From Nitrososphaerota archaeon (GTDB taxonomy: Archaea; Thermoproteota; Nitrososphaeria; Nitrososphaerales; Gagatemarchaeaceae): a DNA stretch of 50,569 bases. The notes under the pieces were generated by a model that searched no databases, had not been told where the DNA came from, and saw nothing but the letters and a program-made list of their open reading frames with translations. A program made the translations under genes and the position numbers. The stretch lies in contig JAFMAI010000003.1 in NCBI GenBank assembly GCA_029785085.1, forward strand, positions 1 to 50,569, written 5' to 3'. Shown here one piece after another: positions 10,036 to 34,383 of this stretch; position 1 is the first letter of the stretch; the number at the start of each line of letters is the position of its first letter.

Positions 10036-10557
10036 CTATCTCGTCGAAGTGTAGCCGCTGACTGCCCCGACGAGGCCCCCGGCTAATCCGAATGCCACCG
10101 CTGCAAAGGGACCGAAGAACACGCCGACGACGATTCCGATGATCGTGCCCACGGCGAAGTCTTTCACGACCGCGCTGGACCAGTTCTGGGCGACCACAAG
10201 CCCTGTCAGGGCATAGTTCGTGAGGTACAGGCCCACGTACTCGGGGGAGAACGCGCGTATCACTACCAGGTCCAGATACCACAGGTAACCCGTGAGGATG
10301 TTCCCGACAGAGAGGAGAACCAGGAGTTCCCTCCTCAGACTGTCGCGACCGAGGCGGGTGACCAAGAGCCCCACCACCAGCACGAGGGGGAACCAGACTA
10401 CGCCTAATCCCCAGTAAGGGACGCCAAGGAGTGAAGCATACGGAGAGAATTGCACGTGGGACCAGTATGTGGTGAACGCGTTTTCCTGCCAGGCGTGCAC
10501 TAACGCCTCGGCCACCCCGACCACCGAAAGGAAGATGAAGACAACTGACGCCTTCAT
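10036..10557 (-). CDS. VKOR-family membrane protein lacking all cysteines
   Basis: A 173-residue protein with about four to five transmembrane helices. The stretch SPYASLLGVPYWGLGVVWFPL closely matches the VKOR family pattern that normally follows the conserved cysteine (CSxxL...G.P). Vitamin K epoxide reductases and bacterial/archaeal VKOR proteins use two cysteine pairs to pass electrons from DsbA-like proteins to quinone. This protein contains no cysteine at all, so it cannot be a disulfide oxidase; a quinone-binding or structural role is possible. GCTTAATACA (minus, about 10581-10590) is a box A about 29 bases upstream of the ATG, so the gene looks expressed and leaderless. It is divergent from a cupredoxin gene. 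Confidence 0.7.
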   Translation of the reverse strand: MKASVVFIFLSVVGVAEALVHAWQENAFTTYWSHVQFSPYASLLGVPYWGLGVVWFPLVLVVGLLVTRLGRDSLRRELLVLLSVGNILTGYLWYLDLVVIRAFSPEYVGLYLTNYALTGLVVAQNWSSAVVKDFAVGTIIGIVVGVFFGPFAAVAFGLAGGLVGAVSGYTSTR

Positions 10558-10908
10558 GCAGCAGCTCTACGAGCCGTCAGTGTATTAAGCGGCAAAGACG
10601 TTTTCCAAGGTTGAGAACAGGCCACAGGATTCATCATCGAGTAGGCGCGCGTCGATAGTCTGGCCGTGCGGGGCCGAACGCTGACTCTCTCAGAAAAGGC
10701 CGGGAGCTCGTCATTCACGAGGTCCGGCATCGCCTTCGTGCCAGGCACCCTCGTGCAGCCCTCCTCAGACTCTCTGAGCCCAAGGTGATGTAGCGCCTGT
10801 GGAGTGAGTCTGAGCCCTTCCAGCCAAAGTGGGTTGTGGAAAACCTCCCCGAGCGAGCCAGGGCGCGGACAGCAGGGCACGCCTGAGGTTACAGGCACGC
10901 CTCCGTGA
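10558..10908. other. Intergenic stretch, no gene recognised
   Basis: Between the VKOR-like gene and the cupredoxin operator no open frame has a convincing family match. The VKOR-like box A lies at its left end (10581-10590). A 114-codon minus-strand frame covers most of it but has low-complexity composition and no recognisable motif; it may be chance or decayed sequence. Confidence 0.4.
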
Positions 10909-10944
10909 TTCTCAGTTCTGAGAACCGCCTTGGGGGCTTAAATG
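10909..10944 (+). promoter_or_regulatory. TTCTCA-N4-TGAGAA operator and box A of cupredoxin gene 1
   Basis: The inverted repeat TTCTCA-GTTC-TGAGAA spans 10909-10924. Box A (CTTAAATG, 10937-10944) is centred 16 bases beyond its right end. The same palindrome at the same distance from box A precedes the Rieske/cytochrome b operon (23355) and the DsrE2-TusA-SQR operon (33815). A site just upstream of BRE/box A is the usual position of archaeal activators; binding protein unknown. Confidence 0.7.
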
Positions 10945-10960: not shown

Positions 10961-11563
10961 ATGCGGTCCATGAAACTGGCGGCAATCGTCCTGATAGCGA
11001 TGATTGCGCTCGGGATAGTGGGGTGGGGATGGGTCATCGGAACCACCACGAGCGTGAACGTAGCTGTAGGCGCCCCCCAGCCATTCAAGCTGACATTGCT
11101 GATAACAGCAGATTCGCCGTGGAATGCCACTACCAGCGGCCCCCGCTATTGGGTAGTCACGCCGCAAGGATTGGAGTCGTCTGCCAACATCACCCTTCCG
11201 GTCAACACGGTCATCCAACTGACCATCATAGACCAAGACGGAGCTACACCAATTCCAGCGCAATACAGCAATGTTGAAGGGACGATAACCAACGTGATCT
11301 CCGTGACCAATGACACGACGGGCGCCATGCAAACCGCTACTTCGCTGGATAACGATACGCAGATCGGGCATACATTCACCATTCAGCAGCTGAACCTGAA
11401 CATTCCAGTGGGAGCCCATGTGAATGAAACCGCGGAATTCATTCTGACCCAGACGGGAACGTTCACTTGGCGTTGCGAAGTCCCATGCGGGTTCGGGCCT
11501 GCTGGATTGAATGGGCCAATGGACGGGCCAGGCTGGATGCAGGGAACTGTCACAGTCAGATAG
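10961..11563 (+). CDS. Membrane-anchored cupredoxin with CuA-like Cys-x3-Cys motif (paralogue 1)
   Basis: A 200-residue protein with one N-terminal hydrophobic segment (about residues 5-27) that anchors a beta-rich extracytoplasmic domain. The C-terminal part shows GHTFTI (candidate His ligand), LNLNIPV, then WRCEVPCGFGP and GPM...GWM. Fold and order resemble cytochrome oxidase subunit II. The C-x3-C spacing equals that of the CuA loop (CSExCG.xH..M), but the loop histidine is replaced by proline and the methionine is displaced, so the copper site must differ. It probably carries electrons from the cytochrome b/Rieske complex, whose operon begins with a paralogue. ATG 10970 is an alternative start, 29 bases after the box A centre. 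Confidence 0.8.
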   Translation: MRSMKLAAIVLIAMIALGIVGWGWVIGTTTSVNVAVGAPQPFKLTLLITADSPWNATTSGPRYWVVTPQGLESSANITLPVNTVIQLTIIDQDGATPIPAQYSNVEGTITNVISVTNDTTGAMQTATSLDNDTQIGHTFTIQQLNLNIPVGAHVNETAEFILTQTGTFTWRCEVPCGFGPAGLNGPMDGPGWMQGTVTVR

Positions 11564-11768
11564 GACGGCCCCACAGATCTGGCGAACGACTCCTTTCCGT
11601 TCAAGGACGGCGACCCTCCTGGAGTTCGAGACCGAAGGCAGAATCTTCGAGTCAAGAAAGGCCTTGCGTCCTAGCCAAAGGGTCGAGTTCTCGGGCGGCG
11701 GGGGCTGATTTTGGTTATCGGTAGCCTTGGAGTTTGATATATGCTCCGATTCATAGAAAGTCTAAGAA

Positions 11769-11841
11769 TAGCCCGGCTAGGATTCGAACCTAGGTCGAAG
11801 GCTCCAGAGGCCCCCATCCTTGACCACTAGACGACCGGGCT
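11769..11841 (-). tRNA. tRNA-Gln (CTG)
   Basis: On the minus strand a full cloverleaf is seen: acceptor AGCCCGG pairs with CCGGGCT, the anticodon stem GGGGC/GCCTT closes loop CTCTGGA with anticodon CTG (codon CAG), the T arm is CTAGG-TTCGAAT-CCTAG, and the discriminator base is A. No intron and no encoded CCA. A box A-like CTTTTATCG (minus, about 11868-11877) lies about 30 bases upstream. It lies between the cupredoxin gene and the end of an aminotransferase gene. Confidence 0.93.
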
Positions 11842-11880
11842 GCAGTTCGGGAGTGCGACCGCGGTGCCGATAAAAGCGTT

Positions 11881-13020
11881 CTATCGAGTGTTCCGTCGTT
11901 TCGCAACAGCCACGGGCCGCGCCGACGCCCCTGTCTCTTCCATCACATCCCCCATGTGGCCCAGCGCCTTCCCGAGCACGTCGGGCTGCAGGATCCCGAA
12001 GTGGCCTATCCTGATCATCCTGTCCTTGTCGTCGTAGATCCCCCTCGACACCATCACATGGTGCTCGCTCTCGAGGTTCTTCTGTATCTGGCCCGCCTTC
12101 CCATCCTCAACCCAGAAAGAGGTGACCGTGTCCGCCCTGTGGCCTTCCTCTGCCACGAATTCCTGGCCCCACTCCGCCACCTTGGCTCTGGTGATCTCCC
12201 CCAATTTCCTGTGCCTCTCCCACCTGTTCTCGATCCCTTCCTCCTTCGCCTCCAGGAGCGACTCCCTCAGGGCCAGCAGGACCTGGGTGGCGGGCGTTGC
12301 CAGGTACATCTTGGGGTCGTCCATGATTGGCTTCCACCTGAGGAGGTTCATGTAGTATCCTTCTATCGGGCTCTTGCGGTTCTCCATGTGCTCCAGGGCG
12401 CGCGTAGATACGGCCAGGAGGACCGCGCCAGGAGGCCCGGCCAGGGCCTTCTGTGAGGCCGTGAAGACCACGTCCGCACCGAGCCTGTCGAAGTCCAGTG
12501 GGACGCCTCCCACGGCGCAGACCGAGTCGACCACCGACATAGCCCCCGCTTTCTCGCACTCTTCCACCAGTTCGGCGACGGGGTTCAGTATCGAGCTCGA
12601 AGTGTCTACGTGGGTGATGAACACCGTTGAATACTTCGACTTGCGGAGCTGCCGCCTCAGGGCGTCGGGGTCCGCCGCGCTCCCTCCCTTGAATTCGAGC
12701 TTGTCAGCCTTCGCCCCGTGGACCTCGTTGAGCATCAGCATCCTGTGGCCGAAGTAACCGTTGATCAGCGTCAGTGTCCTGTCCCCCCTGGACACAAGGC
12801 TGACCACCGACGACTCCATCCCGATGGTCCCAGACCCCGTGAACACGAACTGTACACCCGCCTCGTTCTTGAAGACGTACCTGGCCAGGGCTACCGTCTC
12901 CTTGAACGTCGAGTAGAACTCCGCGCCGACGTGCGGGAGCTGGGGGCGGGCCATGGCGTCCCTTACGCGCTTGGAGAGGTTCGTCGGTCCCGGTATCAGC
13001 AGGAGCGTGTCATCCAACAT
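11881..13020 (-). CDS. Class V aminotransferase (second paralogue)
   Basis: A 379-residue PLP enzyme related to alanine-glyoxylate/serine-pyruvate aminotransferases. It has LLIPGPTNLSKRV at the N-terminus, FTGSGTIGMESS (cofactor phosphate), VVDSVCAVGG (PLP-ring aspartate) and FTASQKALAGPPG with the PLP lysine. The start is ATG 13020 or the GTG one codon earlier. The tail (about 25 residues, ending RPVAVAKRRNTR) is basic. It lies downstream of a SerB-like phosphatase on the same strand (48-base gap), which suggests, without proving, serine or glyoxylate metabolism. Substrate is not certain. Confidence 0.88.
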   Translation of the reverse strand: MLDDTLLLIPGPTNLSKRVRDAMARPQLPHVGAEFYSTFKETVALARYVFKNEAGVQFVFTGSGTIGMESSVVSLVSRGDRTLTLINGYFGHRMLMLNEVHGAKADKLEFKGGSAADPDALRRQLRKSKYSTVFITHVDTSSSILNPVAELVEECEKAGAMSVVDSVCAVGGVPLDFDRLGADVVFTASQKALAGPPGAVLLAVSTRALEHMENRKSPIEGYYMNLLRWKPIMDDPKMYLATPATQVLLALRESLLEAKEEGIENRWERHRKLGEITRAKVAEWGQEFVAEEGHRADTVTSFWVEDGKAGQIQKNLESEHHVMVSRGIYDDKDRMIRIGHFGILQPDVLGKALGHMGDVMEETGASARPVAVAKRRNTR

Positions 13021-23354: not shown

Positions 23355-23389
23355 TTTTCAATTCTGAGAATCGACCCGATGTCTTATAT
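23355..23389 (+). promoter_or_regulatory. TTTTCA-N4-TGAGAA operator and box A of the Rieske/cytochrome b operon
   Basis: TTTTCA-ATTC-TGAGAA (23355-23370) has one mismatch to the perfect palindrome found at 33815. Box A (CTTATAT, 23383-23389) is centred 16 bases after it, the same distance as at the two other sites. Transcription should begin near 23413, at the TTG start of the cupredoxin. Confidence 0.7.
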
Positions 23390-23414: not shown

Positions 23415-24101
23415 TTGAGCACTCGGACTACCCTAATCGGAGGCCTTACCGTTGCGGTGCTTGCGGTAGCCCTCGTCATCTCCGGCTTTGGCGCGGCGCT
23501 TGCAGTCGGCGGAGTCGGGTCAAAGGTCGTGTCCACCACGACGGTGACTCCGACCACCAACTCCACCGCTGCTTCCCCCTATGTGGTGACCTTGGTCATC
23601 ACGACGAACAGCGTGTTCAACTCCACCGTCAAAGACCAACCCGCCTTCTTCGTTCTCGGCCCAAACGGCCTGGAGTCCACGGCGAAGATCTCGCTCCCTG
23701 CGAATCGCCTGATCAAGCTGGTGATCGTCTGCTATGACGACGGCAACGCGTCCCTCGTGCTCCCCAACGACAACGTCGTGTCCGGGACCACAGGCAACAG
23801 TATCTACGTGACCTCCAACGACAACGTCAACGCCAGCCAGGGCCCGTCCGGAATAGTGCTGAAGGGCGGAGCGAACCTCACTTCGGTCCCGCTCTCTGAA
23901 ATCGCCCACACCTTCACCGTGCCAGCGCTCAACCTCAACATCCCTGTGCCGCTCAGTTCGACGGTGGTCGCCTACTTCAAGGTGGGCCAGGCCGGGTCCT
24001 ACTTCTGGTTCTGCGAGACCCGCTGCGGCTTCGGCCCCGACGGCACGCTGGGGGCGATGTCATCCTCCGGTTGGATGACCGGCTCGCTGGTGGCGAGCTG
24101 A
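23415..24101 (+). CDS. Membrane-anchored cupredoxin with CuA-like Cys-x3-Cys motif (paralogue 2)
   Basis: A 228-residue protein with an N-terminal membrane segment (about residues 5-32), a Thr/Ser-rich linker and a C-terminal cupredoxin domain. Candidate copper ligands: His in AHTFTV, two cysteines in FCETRCGFGP and Met in LGAM or GWM. The histidine of the canonical CuA loop is absent, as in paralogue 1 at 10961. The frame extends to ATG 23379, but box A overlaps that start; TTG 23415, 29 bases after the box A centre, is preferred. It heads the operon of the Rieske protein and cytochrome b, so it is the likely electron acceptor of that complex. Confidence 0.82.
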   Translation: MSTRTTLIGGLTVAVLAVALVISGFGAALAVGGVGSKVVSTTTVTPTTNSTAASPYVVTLVITTNSVFNSTVKDQPAFFVLGPNGLESTAKISLPANRLIKLVIVCYDDGNASLVLPNDNVVSGTTGNSIYVTSNDNVNASQGPSGIVLKGGANLTSVPLSEIAHTFTVPALNLNIPVPLSSTVVAYFKVGQAGSYFWFCETRCGFGPDGTLGAMSSSGWMTGSLVAS

Positions 24102-24143
24102 AATACCGGCGACGCATGCTCTGGGAGCGGTGACCTGGAACCA

Positions 24144-24788
24144 GTGAGCGCTGAACAGCCTGGGGACTCAACCGGAGGAGAGGCTGACAAGTCGAGGCGG
24201 GAGTTCCTGAAGATAGCTGCCGCCATCTCCGGCGCCCTCGCCGTGGGGGGGATAGCTTCGGTGATGAAGTCCGTTGTGATTCCTGCGGTCCCCACTACGT
24301 CTGGACCGCAGACAAGCTTCCCTCGTGTCAAGATCTCGAGCGTGTCGGAGCTCTCCACTGGGGTCGTTGTGATATTCAACTATCCGCTCGGCAACGAGCC
24401 GAACATCCTAGTGAAGCTCGGCCAGAAGGCCGAGGGCGGCGTAGGGCCCGACGGCGACATCGTTGCGTTCAGCCAGATCTGCCAACACCTTGGGTGCATA
24501 TGGGGGTTCGTCGCCGCGGGCAAGTCCCCCACTGTGAACCCATCCTTCGTCGCCCCTGCCCCCGTAGGATACTGCCCATGCCACGGGAGCGTCTACGACC
24601 TGCTCGAGGCTGGCAAGGTGATCGGAGGGCCTGCTCCGAGGCCCGCGCCACAGGTCCAGCTACAGGCCGACTCGTCCGGAGACATCTATGCGGTGGGCAT
24701 GGGGCCGCCCACGATATTCGGCCATGACACAGGGTCCACCGATGTGGCGGACGACCTCCAGGGCGGAACCCTGGTCAGCTCGACATAG
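24144..24788 (+). CDS. Rieske iron-sulfur protein with Tat signal
   Basis: A 214-residue protein starting with GTG. SRREFLK (about residues 18-24) before a hydrophobic stretch is a twin-arginine signal/anchor. The two cluster-binding boxes are CQHLGC and CPCHGS, each giving one Cys and one His ligand for the 2Fe-2S centre plus the disulfide cysteines; all are present. The insert between the boxes (about 25 residues) is longer than in mitochondrial proteins. It takes one electron from quinol at the outer side of the membrane and passes it on, here most likely to the cupredoxin encoded upstream. It is followed by cytochrome b with a 13-base gap. Confidence 0.93.
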   Translation: MSAEQPGDSTGGEADKSRREFLKIAAAISGALAVGGIASVMKSVVIPAVPTTSGPQTSFPRVKISSVSELSTGVVVIFNYPLGNEPNILVKLGQKAEGGVGPDGDIVAFSQICQHLGCIWGFVAAGKSPTVNPSFVAPAPVGYCPCHGSVYDLLEAGKVIGGPAPRPAPQVQLQADSSGDIYAVGMGPPTIFGHDTGSTDVADDLQGGTLVSST

Positions 24789-24801
24789 AGGTGTGGATCA
24801 G

Positions 24802-26277
24802 GTGGCAGAAAAGTCCGGTCTAATTCAGCGGATGGCTGGCTGGTTCGACTCGAGGTTCGGCCTGAGCTACCCCCTCCTCCGGCCGGTCCCGCGCTACGCA
24901 CTGAGCCCGTTCTACTGGCTGGGCGCCCTGGCGGTGGTAGCCTTCGTCATCCAGGGTGTGACAGGGGCAATCATGATGCTCTACTATGTCCCCAGCCCGA
25001 CCCAGGCGTACTCGTCCACCCAGTACGTCTTCCAGAGCGTCTACAACGGCAGGTTCCTTGAGACCATCCACCTCTACACGGCCTACGCCATGATCATGCT
25101 CGCGTTCATGCACATGATGAGGGGGTACTTCGTGTCTGTCCACAAGAAGCCCAGGGAAGCCATGTGGATCATAGGGATGCTGATGGGCTTCGTGACCCTG
25201 GGGTTCGGATTCACAGGATACCTGCTCCCCTGGACGGTCGTCTCCAAGTCAGCCACCGACGTCGGGATAGGGATGGTCACCGCCCTCCCCCAGCCTATCT
25301 CATCTCTCCTGACATTCCTGATAGTCGGCAACGGAGGGAACTCGGCGGAGCTCCTGAGGTTCTTCGACCTGCACGTCATGCTCCTCCCAGCGGCGCTGTT
25401 GATACTCCTGGTGGCGAAGATGTACATGCTCGAAGCCCACGGAGTGGCCGACCCCACGAGCGGGTCCCCCGCCGAGCCCAAGCCGAAGCTCTCCCCCATC
25501 TTCCCGGACGTCACCATGTACCTCTTCGAGCTGTCACTGCTCTTCGGGGCCGGGATGCTGCTGATATCCGCCCTGTTCCCGCTCAACCTCCCGCCCCAGT
25601 ATACCCCCGCGGCCGCTTCGCAGTTCATCCCCCAGCCCGACTGGTACTTCCTCTGGGTCTACCAGGTCCTCAAGATCAAGATATTCGAGGGCTCCACTGG
25701 CCTTGCCATGGCGCTCACCGTGGTGTCAGCGATCTTTGTCCTCCTGATCATACTCCCGTTCATCGACCGGGGCAAGAACAGGGAGATCTCCAAGAGGCCG
25801 GTCTACACCACCCTGGGAGTCATATTCGTGACGGAGGTAGTGGTCCTCTCTTACTGGGGCCTGGTGACGCCGGGAATGATCATCCCCGTAGAACAGGCCG
25901 CGCTGGTGGTAGGCGGTACAGCCCTGCTGATGGCGGTGGGCTCGGCCTTGGTCTACAGGCTGATGTATTCCAGGGCCAAGGGGAGGCTTGCGCTGGCGCC
26001 AGCGAAGAGCATACCTTCCTCGGAGCTGAGGAACGGGCTCGCGTTCACTGGGCTGGTCGCCCTGGGCGCTTTCTCGGTCGGGACGCTGGTGAACGGCTCC
26101 GCAGGGCTCCTGATGGGCGGCCTTTCTGTCGCCGGCCTGGAAGTGGTGAGCGTCTCCGCCGTGCTCCTCGGCCTCGACCTGCTAGGGAGCGTCTTCCTCA
26201 TCTACAGGCTTGACCTCAGGACTGGGAACATCAAGCGGAGGGTCAGGGTCCTCGAAGCGGGATGGAGGGGCAATTGA
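24802..26277 (+). CDS. Cytochrome b (b6/subunit IV fused), with Lys at the fourth haem-ligand position
   Basis: A 491-residue membrane protein, N-terminal cytochrome b domain joined to a subunit IV-like domain (PDWYF, the variant of the PEWY quinol-site motif) and extra C-terminal helices. Haem ligands: His90 (ETIHLY), His104 (FMHMM) and His191 (DLHVML). The partner of His191, expected in AHLY-type sequence 15 residues on, is Lys206 (VAKMYM; codon 25417-25419). GTG 24802 is chosen because GAGGTG lies about 8 bases upstream; GTG 24793 is an alternative. It oxidises quinol together with the Rieske protein. Confidence 0.92.
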   Translation: MAEKSGLIQRMAGWFDSRFGLSYPLLRPVPRYALSPFYWLGALAVVAFVIQGVTGAIMMLYYVPSPTQAYSSTQYVFQSVYNGRFLETIHLYTAYAMIMLAFMHMMRGYFVSVHKKPREAMWIIGMLMGFVTLGFGFTGYLLPWTVVSKSATDVGIGMVTALPQPISSLLTFLIVGNGGNSAELLRFFDLHVMLLPAALLILLVAKMYMLEAHGVADPTSGSPAEPKPKLSPIFPDVTMYLFELSLLFGAGMLLISALFPLNLPPQYTPAAASQFIPQPDWYFLWVYQVLKIKIFEGSTGLAMALTVVSAIFVLLIILPFIDRGKNREISKRPVYTTLGVIFVTEVVVLSYWGLVTPGMIIPVEQAALVVGGTALLMAVGSALVYRLMYSRAKGRLALAPAKSIPSSELRNGLAFTGLVALGAFSVGTLVNGSAGLLMGGLSVAGLEVVSVSAVLLGLDLLGSVFLIYRLDLRTGNIKRRVRVLEAGWRGN

Positions 26278-26546
26278 GGATCGCAGCGACCTTGCTGGCT
26301 ATCCAGGTGGTCTTCCTCGTCGCCCTGCAGGGGACCTCCATCGTGGTCATCTGGCTGCTCAACCCTCTCACGCAGTCCGCGACCGACACCTTCGCGCTCT
26401 ACCTCAGCGTCGACCTGCTCGCCTTCGTCATGATGTCTTACCTGTACAGATCTAGGCGCTCCGGTGGGGAGCCTAGCTCCGCCTGGCTCGCCGTCGGCTA
26501 CCTCGTCCTGGTCGTGCTGCTGGTGTCCAACCTAGCGCTCTCCTAG
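26262..26546 (+). CDS. Small membrane protein at the end of the Rieske/cytochrome b operon
   Basis: A 94-residue protein with about three hydrophobic segments (residues about 5-33, 42-60 and 72-93) and a short basic loop (RSRRSGG). It overlaps the cytochrome b gene by 16 bases, so it is cotranscribed and probably a small subunit or assembly factor of the complex. I recognise no family. Its TAG stop is interlocked with the TAG stop of the convergent peptide-transporter ATPase gene in one CTAG. Confidence 0.75.
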   Translation: MEGQLRIAATLLAIQVVFLVALQGTSIVVIWLLNPLTQSATDTFALYLSVDLLAFVMMSYLYRSRRSGGEPSSAWLAVGYLVLVVLLVSNLALS

Positions 26547-33814: not shown

Positions 33815-33849
33815 TTCTCAGAATTGAGAAACGGGTTTCCGATTTATTA
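33815..33849 (+). promoter_or_regulatory. TTCTCA-N4-TGAGAA operator and box A of the DsrE2-TusA-SQR-ArsR operon
   Basis: TTCTCA-GAAT-TGAGAA (33815-33830; arms extend to 7 bp with flanking T/A) is the best copy of the shared palindrome. Box A TTTATTA (33843-33849) is centred 16 bases after it. Transcription would start near 33873, 10 bases before the first ATG. Confidence 0.72.
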
Positions 33850-33882: not shown

Positions 33883-34383
33883 ATGTCCCAAGTAACATCG
33901 CTGAGGACTGAAGAGGAGGAGGAACAGACAGAGAGGATGCTCATCATCCTCTCCAAGGGGTCGATGGACATGGCGTATCCGGCGCTGATGATAGCCACGA
34001 CCGCGGCGACGATGGGGAAGGAAGTCCACATGTTCTTCACGTTCTGGGGCCTGCAGGCCGTGAGCAAGAAGAGCGTCGGCTCGCTCAAGGTGTCCCCGGT
34101 CGGAAACCCCGGGATGCCGATGCCGAACATACTAGGCATGATCCCCGGCATGACCGCCATGGCCACCAGGATGATGGGCGGGAAGATGAAGAAGGCGAAG
34201 GTGCCGAGCATCCCGGACATGCTCAAGATGGCGAAGGACCTCGGGGTGAAGCTGCACGCGTGCTCGACCACCATGGAGGTGATGGGGGTCTCGAGGGAGG
34301 CGCTCGTCGACGAGATAGACGACGTGGTCGGCGCAGCCACCATGGTGTCGCTGGGGGAGGGTGGGCAGACCATCTTCATCTAG
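33883..34383 (+). CDS. DsrE2-like sulfur-carrier protein
   Basis: A 166-residue DsrE/DsrF-like protein. The C-terminal part VKLHACSTTMEVMGV (Cys at about 126) is the DsrE2 pattern for the persulfide-bearing cysteine; a Met- and Pro-rich middle (GNPGMPMPNILGMIPGM) is also typical. DsrE2 accepts sulfane sulfur and exchanges it with TusA. The frame is open upstream to 33691, but ATG 33883 is chosen since the promoter lies at 33815-33849. The TusA gene follows after 9 bases. Confidence 0.88.
   Translation: MSQVTSLRTEEEEEQTERMLIILSKGSMDMAYPALMIATTAATMGKEVHMFFTFWGLQAVSKKSVGSLKVSPVGNPGMPMPNILGMIPGMTAMATRMMGGKMKKAKVPSIPDMLKMAKDLGVKLHACSTTMEVMGVSREALVDEIDDVVGAATMVSLGEGGQTIFI

Follow-up and report, generated by a model that had tools for sequence, protein, structure and literature searches.

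The window, that is, the whole stretch of 50,569 nucleotides analysed here, is part of an incomplete archaeal genome of 0.9 Mb (G000) and carries the genes and sites collected in Table 1. Cysteines are the defining feature of VKOR; the gene on which the present analysis is centred, VKORx, encodes a VKOR-family membrane protein whose translated reading frame contains no Cys downstream of the ATG, in agreement with the preliminary description of this DNA, the SCC ahead of it being the reading of the three codons that precede the ATG. The profile search proposed there as a check upholds the VKOR relation suspected from the sequence pattern; indeed, the protein scores 35.1 bits against Pfam PF07884 (VKOR), above the cut-off of 27.5, over residues 33-119. 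Two ordinary four-Cys VKORs are also encoded by G000, the gene of one of them standing after that of a secreted, presumably DUF929-like, protein.

As had also been described, VKORx is divergent from a cupredoxin-like gene; an operon encoding a second cupredoxin of the same family, a Rieske protein, cytochrome b and a 94-aa membrane protein (23415-26546) is located 13 kb from VKORx. A Pfam search gave no family name for the divergent cupredoxin-like protein, and a profile of its family (7 rows) finds, with E values down to 4e-7, the CuA domains of cytochrome oxidase subunit II, and also nitrosocyanin (E 4e-4); the structure model of the cupredoxin reaches a pLDDT of only 31. Within this family (the two window proteins and those of L063, L064, L085 and L150), a His, a C-x3-C pair and a Met are invariant in 7/7 rows, and the His which in the usual cupredoxin motif stands between the second Cys and the Met is absent from the seven rows.

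Table 1. Genes, protein features and upstream sites located in the window
Feature	Position	Strand	Remarks
VKORx, VKOR-family membrane protein without Cys, 173 aa	10036..10557	-	ATG start
Glycine-rich C-terminal helical hairpin of VKORx, residues 129-172	10042..10173	-	unaligned in 29/29 Cys-bearing rows
Pfam VKOR PF07884 match in VKORx (profile 43-131)	10201..10461	-	36.3 bits, E 3.6e-9
Tyr111 codon of VKORx, CxxC+4 (human Tyr139)	10225..10227	-	Tyr in 10/10 orthologues
Tyr107 codon of VKORx, at the place of the second Cys of CxxC	10237..10239	-	Tyr in 10/10 orthologues
TATA-like element CTTAA of VKORx	10585..10589	-	
Operator-like site of VKORx	10599..10617	-	weak, 3 mismatches to TTCTCANNNNTGAGAATCG; 41 nt before ATG
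Operator-like palindrome before the divergent cupredoxin	10909..10927	+	1 mismatch
Divergent cupredoxin-like protein, CuA-like family	10961..11563	+	N-terminal membrane anchor
Operator-like site before the cupredoxin-Rieske-cytochrome b operon	23355..23373	+	1 mismatch
Second cupredoxin, same family as 10961-11563	23415..24101	+	start by G023 homology and upstream site; longest frame begins at 23379
Rieske 2Fe-2S protein	24144..24788	+	twin-arginine signal match below Pfam cut-off
Cytochrome b, N and C domains	24802..26277	+	
94-aa membrane protein	26262..26546	+	after cytochrome b also in G003, G067, G088
Third operator-like site, before the DsrE-like gene	33815..33833	+	1 mismatch
DsrE/DsrF/DrsH-like protein	33883..34383	+	likely same regulon

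Descent of VKORx and loss of its cysteines

Orthologues of VKORx were sought among 61 relatives by a protein search and among 400 genomes from the order, a sample of a larger group, with a profile; the scores fall into two classes, VKORx loci at 272 bits or more and everything else at 103 bits or less. The upper class comprises 14 loci in 13 of the 400 genomes, corresponding to 10 different proteins (those of the window, G008 and G029 are identical, as are those of G009, G030 and the second copy of G008) and assigned by our count to nine lineages, with G013 close to G009. The sequences L069 (G008) and L070 (G029) are at least 99.9% identical to the window and belong to two other species bins; one of the two contigs bears a coverage of 1.16 in its name, G008 contains another VKORx, one of the 64% type, and a binning mix-up is possible. 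In a search of 398 genomes of the phylum the best match outside G000 itself reached 36 bits, a class search (400 genomes, many of them shared with the order search) returned orthologue-class matches only inside the order, and one scan of viral contigs gave no relative; as for the open-licence PMC literature, no paper on a Cys-less VKOR was found, by title and beginning of the abstract, among the matches listed.

Both Cys pairs are absent in all ten different orthologues, a single Cys occurring in some of them and only in the C-terminal hairpin or ahead of the core; with respect to the Pfam VKOR cut-off, nine of the 14 loci lie above it and five below (23.9-24.7 bits). VKOR frames collected without a Cys filter amount to 53, namely the 10 VKORx, 42 other full-length rows, all with at least four Cys, and one frame that a contig end truncates (2 Cys). 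In the midpoint-rooted tree of the 52 full rows, the 10 Cys-less rows form one clade (support 100/100), to which a long branch leads; together with 27 Cys-bearing rows they make up a 100/99 clade of 37 rows, unresolved at its inner fork and separate from the 15 further Cys-bearing rows. Sequence comparison thereby establishes the descent of VKORx from archaeal VKORs with loss of the thiol chemistry, and it establishes purifying selection on the gene, pairwise dN/dS being 0.07-0.28 (pairs with estimable dS). The loss of Cys is not local, since ten different orthologues in 13 genomes are without both Cys pairs; the doubt expressed in the preliminary description, that relatives with cysteines might reveal a local loss or a pseudogene, is not borne out. 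The disappearance of every catalytic Cys is what could be expected of a pseudogene; nevertheless a pseudogene, a local loss or a sequencing accident is vanishingly improbable, given that internal stops are absent in 14/14 loci, that 46 positions are invariant among the ten orthologues, and given the conserved upstream site and the dN/dS values just quoted.

The residues lost, kept and gained were read from a comparison of the 10 VKORx with 29 Cys-bearing VKORs selected for the presence of CxxC. The loop of the first Cys pair (Cys43, Cys51) is shortened and devoid of Cys in 10/10 VKORx, and in the fourth-helix CxxC (Cys132, Cys135) the first Cys is replaced by S, N, T or A and the second by Tyr, again in 10/10. 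Twelve positions invariant in VKORx are also found in the majority, or all, of the Cys VKORs compared (H21, E25, G45, W55, F56, G85, N86, Y91, W93, Y111, N114 and Y115); D96, also invariant in the ten, corresponds to Glu in 28/29 Cys VKORs. Y111 occupies the CxxC+4 position, that of human Tyr139, which hydrogen-bonds the vitamin K quinone; for the residue at this position a quinone-stabilising role in DsbB and VKOR has been proposed by the authors of the same paper (PMC11208910). Our alignment shows that quinone-side residues are retained in VKORx; it also places Ala41 at human Asn80, the partner of Tyr139. The position of Ser57, a residue listed as fully conserved in VKOR (PMC4555120), falls beside the deletion in the same alignment and is Ser38 in the window protein, Ser/Thr in 7/10 and Ala in 3/10. 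The glycine-rich hairpin (residues 129-172), and in some orthologues a charged tail too, has been gained and conserved in VKORx, with G137, G141, G145, G149, G160, G161 and G164 invariant in 10/10. The C-terminal 45 residues bear a weak likeness to Mgr2 (E 0.09) and Romo1 (E 0.47).

Structure prediction, the other check that had been proposed, gave a mixed outcome. The model of VKORx, made from three sequences, has six helices and middling confidence (pLDDT 65); Foldseek places VKORs at the top with a probability of 1.00 but an E of 0.1, and VIA-align gives a Z of 10.5 to the VKOR structure 3kp9 and a higher one, 13.6, to an unrelated ROP bundle. The VKORx profile, compared with the sequences of solved structures, found no VKOR, its sole match being the weak one to Mgr2 (E 0.09). 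The model is consistent with a VKOR fold and is no proof of it.

The upstream site and the cytochrome b neighbourhood

The regions upstream of the VKORx genes align in one conserved block which, with the cupredoxin promoters included, takes the form TTCTCA-N4-TGAGAATCG and is often followed by a TATA-like CTTAA; a promoter-like element is indeed present upstream of VKORx and conserved in its relatives, as expected from the earlier remark that the gene keeps its promoter. Two copies of the pattern TTCTCAN{20,24}CTTAA are present in the window, both precisely where VKORx and the cupredoxin diverge (shuffle mean 0.04), and three across the whole G000 genome (control 0). A longer pattern, with up to two mismatches, matches G000 at 10 places (control 0) and each of ten other genomes at 2 to 140 (controls 0 to 9), these controls being reversed patterns and palindromic sites counting on both strands. 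The three sites of G000 with one mismatch, none being better, all fall inside the window: one at VKORx and its divergent cupredoxin, one at the Rieske operon and one at the DsrE gene.

The best matches within 110 nt upstream of the 10 VKORx genes have 0, 1, 1, 1, 2, 2, 2, 3, 3 and 3 mismatches, and matches of this quality (up to three mismatches) occur in 0.13% of shuffled upstream DNA. At this level the site precedes 10/10 VKORx genes vs 13/163 other genes (p 2e-10, to be taken as a guide only because the motif derives partly from the same promoters and the orthologues are related), five of the 13 being cupredoxins of the window family; with up to two mismatches the figures are 7/10 and 8/163 (Fisher 8e-7). 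The comparison genes come from ten flank loci and were called with a simple gene finder; 14/164 less the VKORx copy of L069 gives 13/163. Judged by eye in up to 58 loci, the genes behind the sites encode cupredoxins, DsrE-like, TusA-like, universal-stress-like, flavodoxin-like, ferredoxin-like, oxidase-like and dehydrogenase-like proteins, and HTH_10 proteins; Pfam confirms one DsrE and two HTH_10 proteins among them, and two HTH_10 genes carry the operator-like site themselves. Sites were noted in the window, G003, G033, G067, G088 and G094. The palindrome thus described looks like the signature of a redox/energy regulon of the order, perhaps under the control of an HTH_10 regulator. Since the site is common to VKORx and the cupredoxin/Rieske operon, the two are likely to be co-regulated; the putative regulon appears broad, so that a shared site would speak for co-regulation at most and not for a complex.

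The association of VKORx with cupredoxin, Rieske and cytochrome b genes, which the preliminary description had suggested, holds in part. It is supported by the shared site and by position in 4/9 lineages (the window, G003, G067 and G088), where a window-type cytochrome b lies within 14 kb of VKORx. In G003 a run of genes on one strand starts with a P-type ATPase with YHS domain, a cupredoxin, Rieske and cytochrome b, continues with an 88-aa protein, an HTH protein and a plastocyanin-like protein, and ends in VKORx; in G088 the cupredoxin-Rieske-cytochrome b operon is 12 kb away, and in G067 an intact operon is found at about 10 kb and a broken second cytochrome b at 0.7 kb. On the G067 contig (L086) the broken copy, with in-frame stops (11024-12500), adjoins VKORx and the intact copy is at 1153-2637. 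Cupredoxins flank VKORx on both sides in G033, where a distantly related cytochrome b (29% identity) lies at 6-7 kb. In 5/9 lineages, a whole-genome search located no cytochrome b of the window type less than 14 kb from VKORx on the contigs at hand; besides G033, these are the lineages of G022, G023, G009/G013/G030 and G094, contig ends limiting the view in G013, G030 and G094.

Co-occurrence was evaluated in 46 hand-chosen genomes, including all 13 with VKORx. At a threshold of 374 bits, set post hoc, 31/46 have a window-type cytochrome b, the best score among the other 15 being 82 bits; in G058 and G103 the only such protein is of a type with 51% identity. VKORx was found in 13/31 genomes with this cytochrome b vs 0/15 without it (Fisher p 0.002, uncorrected for kinship and genome incompleteness, and the weaker because the MAGs are incomplete and the genomes kin); a hand count of own-genus genomes at least 85% complete gave 6/13 vs 0/5. 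VKORx was not found in 18/31 genomes with window-type cytochrome b, and is therefore no core subunit.

Possible roles of VKORx and comparison with known systems

Conservation and the shared upstream signal suggest that VKORx has acquired a new, non-enzymatic job around quinones. Our tentative reading is that the VKOR fold, now free of thiols, has been kept as a membrane accessory at the quinone site of a redox-regulated chain of Rieske/cytochrome b and cupredoxin. The protein would consist of the four-helix VKOR fold, with the thiol chemistry removed and the quinone end kept, would reside in the membrane beside a Rieske/cytochrome b quinol:cupredoxin oxidoreductase, and would bind (mena)quinone without disulfide chemistry; it may be an auxiliary subunit, for the quinone site or for assembly, that is produced once the Rieske/cytochrome b chain is switched on. 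Binding of quinone or lipid and membership of a complex are inferred. The more far-reaching proposal, in which a clade of VKORs that once formed disulfides now serves an archaeal quinol:cupredoxin oxidoreductase as a quinone-binding subunit without thiols, an invariant Tyr replacing the quinone-side Cys, is somewhat doubtful. Against the accessory role stand Ala41 at the Asn80 position and the presence, in 2/9 lineages, of a Cys-bearing VKOR less than 3 kb from VKORx.

This close linkage would be expected if VKORx were a pseudoenzyme subunit, inactive itself but partnering or regulating the disulfide system of the Cys-bearing VKOR. VKORx and a four-Cys VKOR are 0.74 kb apart on one strand in G094 (L060, 8886-10769) and about 2.5-2.6 kb apart in the G009/G008/G030/G013 group (L067, 9205-12717 in G009), and in G013 VKORx lies 0.8 kb from a VKOR cut by the contig end; moreover, one or more further VKORs above the Pfam cut-off are encoded in 13/13 VKORx genomes (26 matches, 24 of them read, all 24 with CxxC and at least four Cys). 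However, residues for electron transfer between proteins are absent from VKORx, and the operator-like site (up to three mismatches, within some 170 nt spanning the approximate start) is found in 1/14 Cys-bearing VKOR genes (L088), a weak control because some of these genes may be inside operons, and one from which a fifteenth locus, L105, was left out, its best match being VKORx; such a partnership appears unlikely. It is also conceivable that VKORx is a membrane protein of the redox regulon unrelated to quinones, the VKOR bundle being a scaffold and the glycine-rich hairpin the working part, in membrane packing, gating or envelope protection. The seven invariant glycines (G137 to G164), the weak likeness of the hairpin to Mgr2 (E 0.09) and Romo1 (E 0.47), and the universal-stress-like proteins seen by eye behind other sites argue for such a role, which we hold to be distinctly doubtful, the VKOR core around the former active site being invariant too (Y107, Y111, N114, N86, W93, D96, H21 and E25).

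If VKORx is a quinone-site accessory, a conserved Cys-free VKOR clade with quinone-side residues would mean that quinone binding has been separated from thiol chemistry in nature; the protein would point to an unstudied component of respiratory control, together with its operator, in an archaeal order including Nitrososphaerota/Nitrososphaerales MAGs.

As far as known systems are concerned, the likeness of the hairpin to the glycine-rich hairpins of Romo1 and Mgr2 is non-significant, and no further common feature was seen. With the auxiliary subunits of Rieske/cytochrome b complexes VKORx shares the gene neighbourhood, in some lineages, and the operator-like site; unlike them, it was not found in the 18/31 cytochrome b genomes mentioned above, and we know of no such subunit with a VKOR fold. 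With respect to the archaeal and bacterial VKORs (PF07884; Synechococcus VKOR 3kp9), VKORx differs in the loss of CxxC and of the Cys pair of the shortened loop, in the extra C-terminal glycine-rich hairpin and in the Ala at the Ser57 position in 3/10 orthologues, whereas it has in common with them the sequence profile, the order of the helices in the model, the VW-F-P and GN-x-x-T-x-YLW motifs, and the CxxC+4 Tyr with the Asn three residues further.
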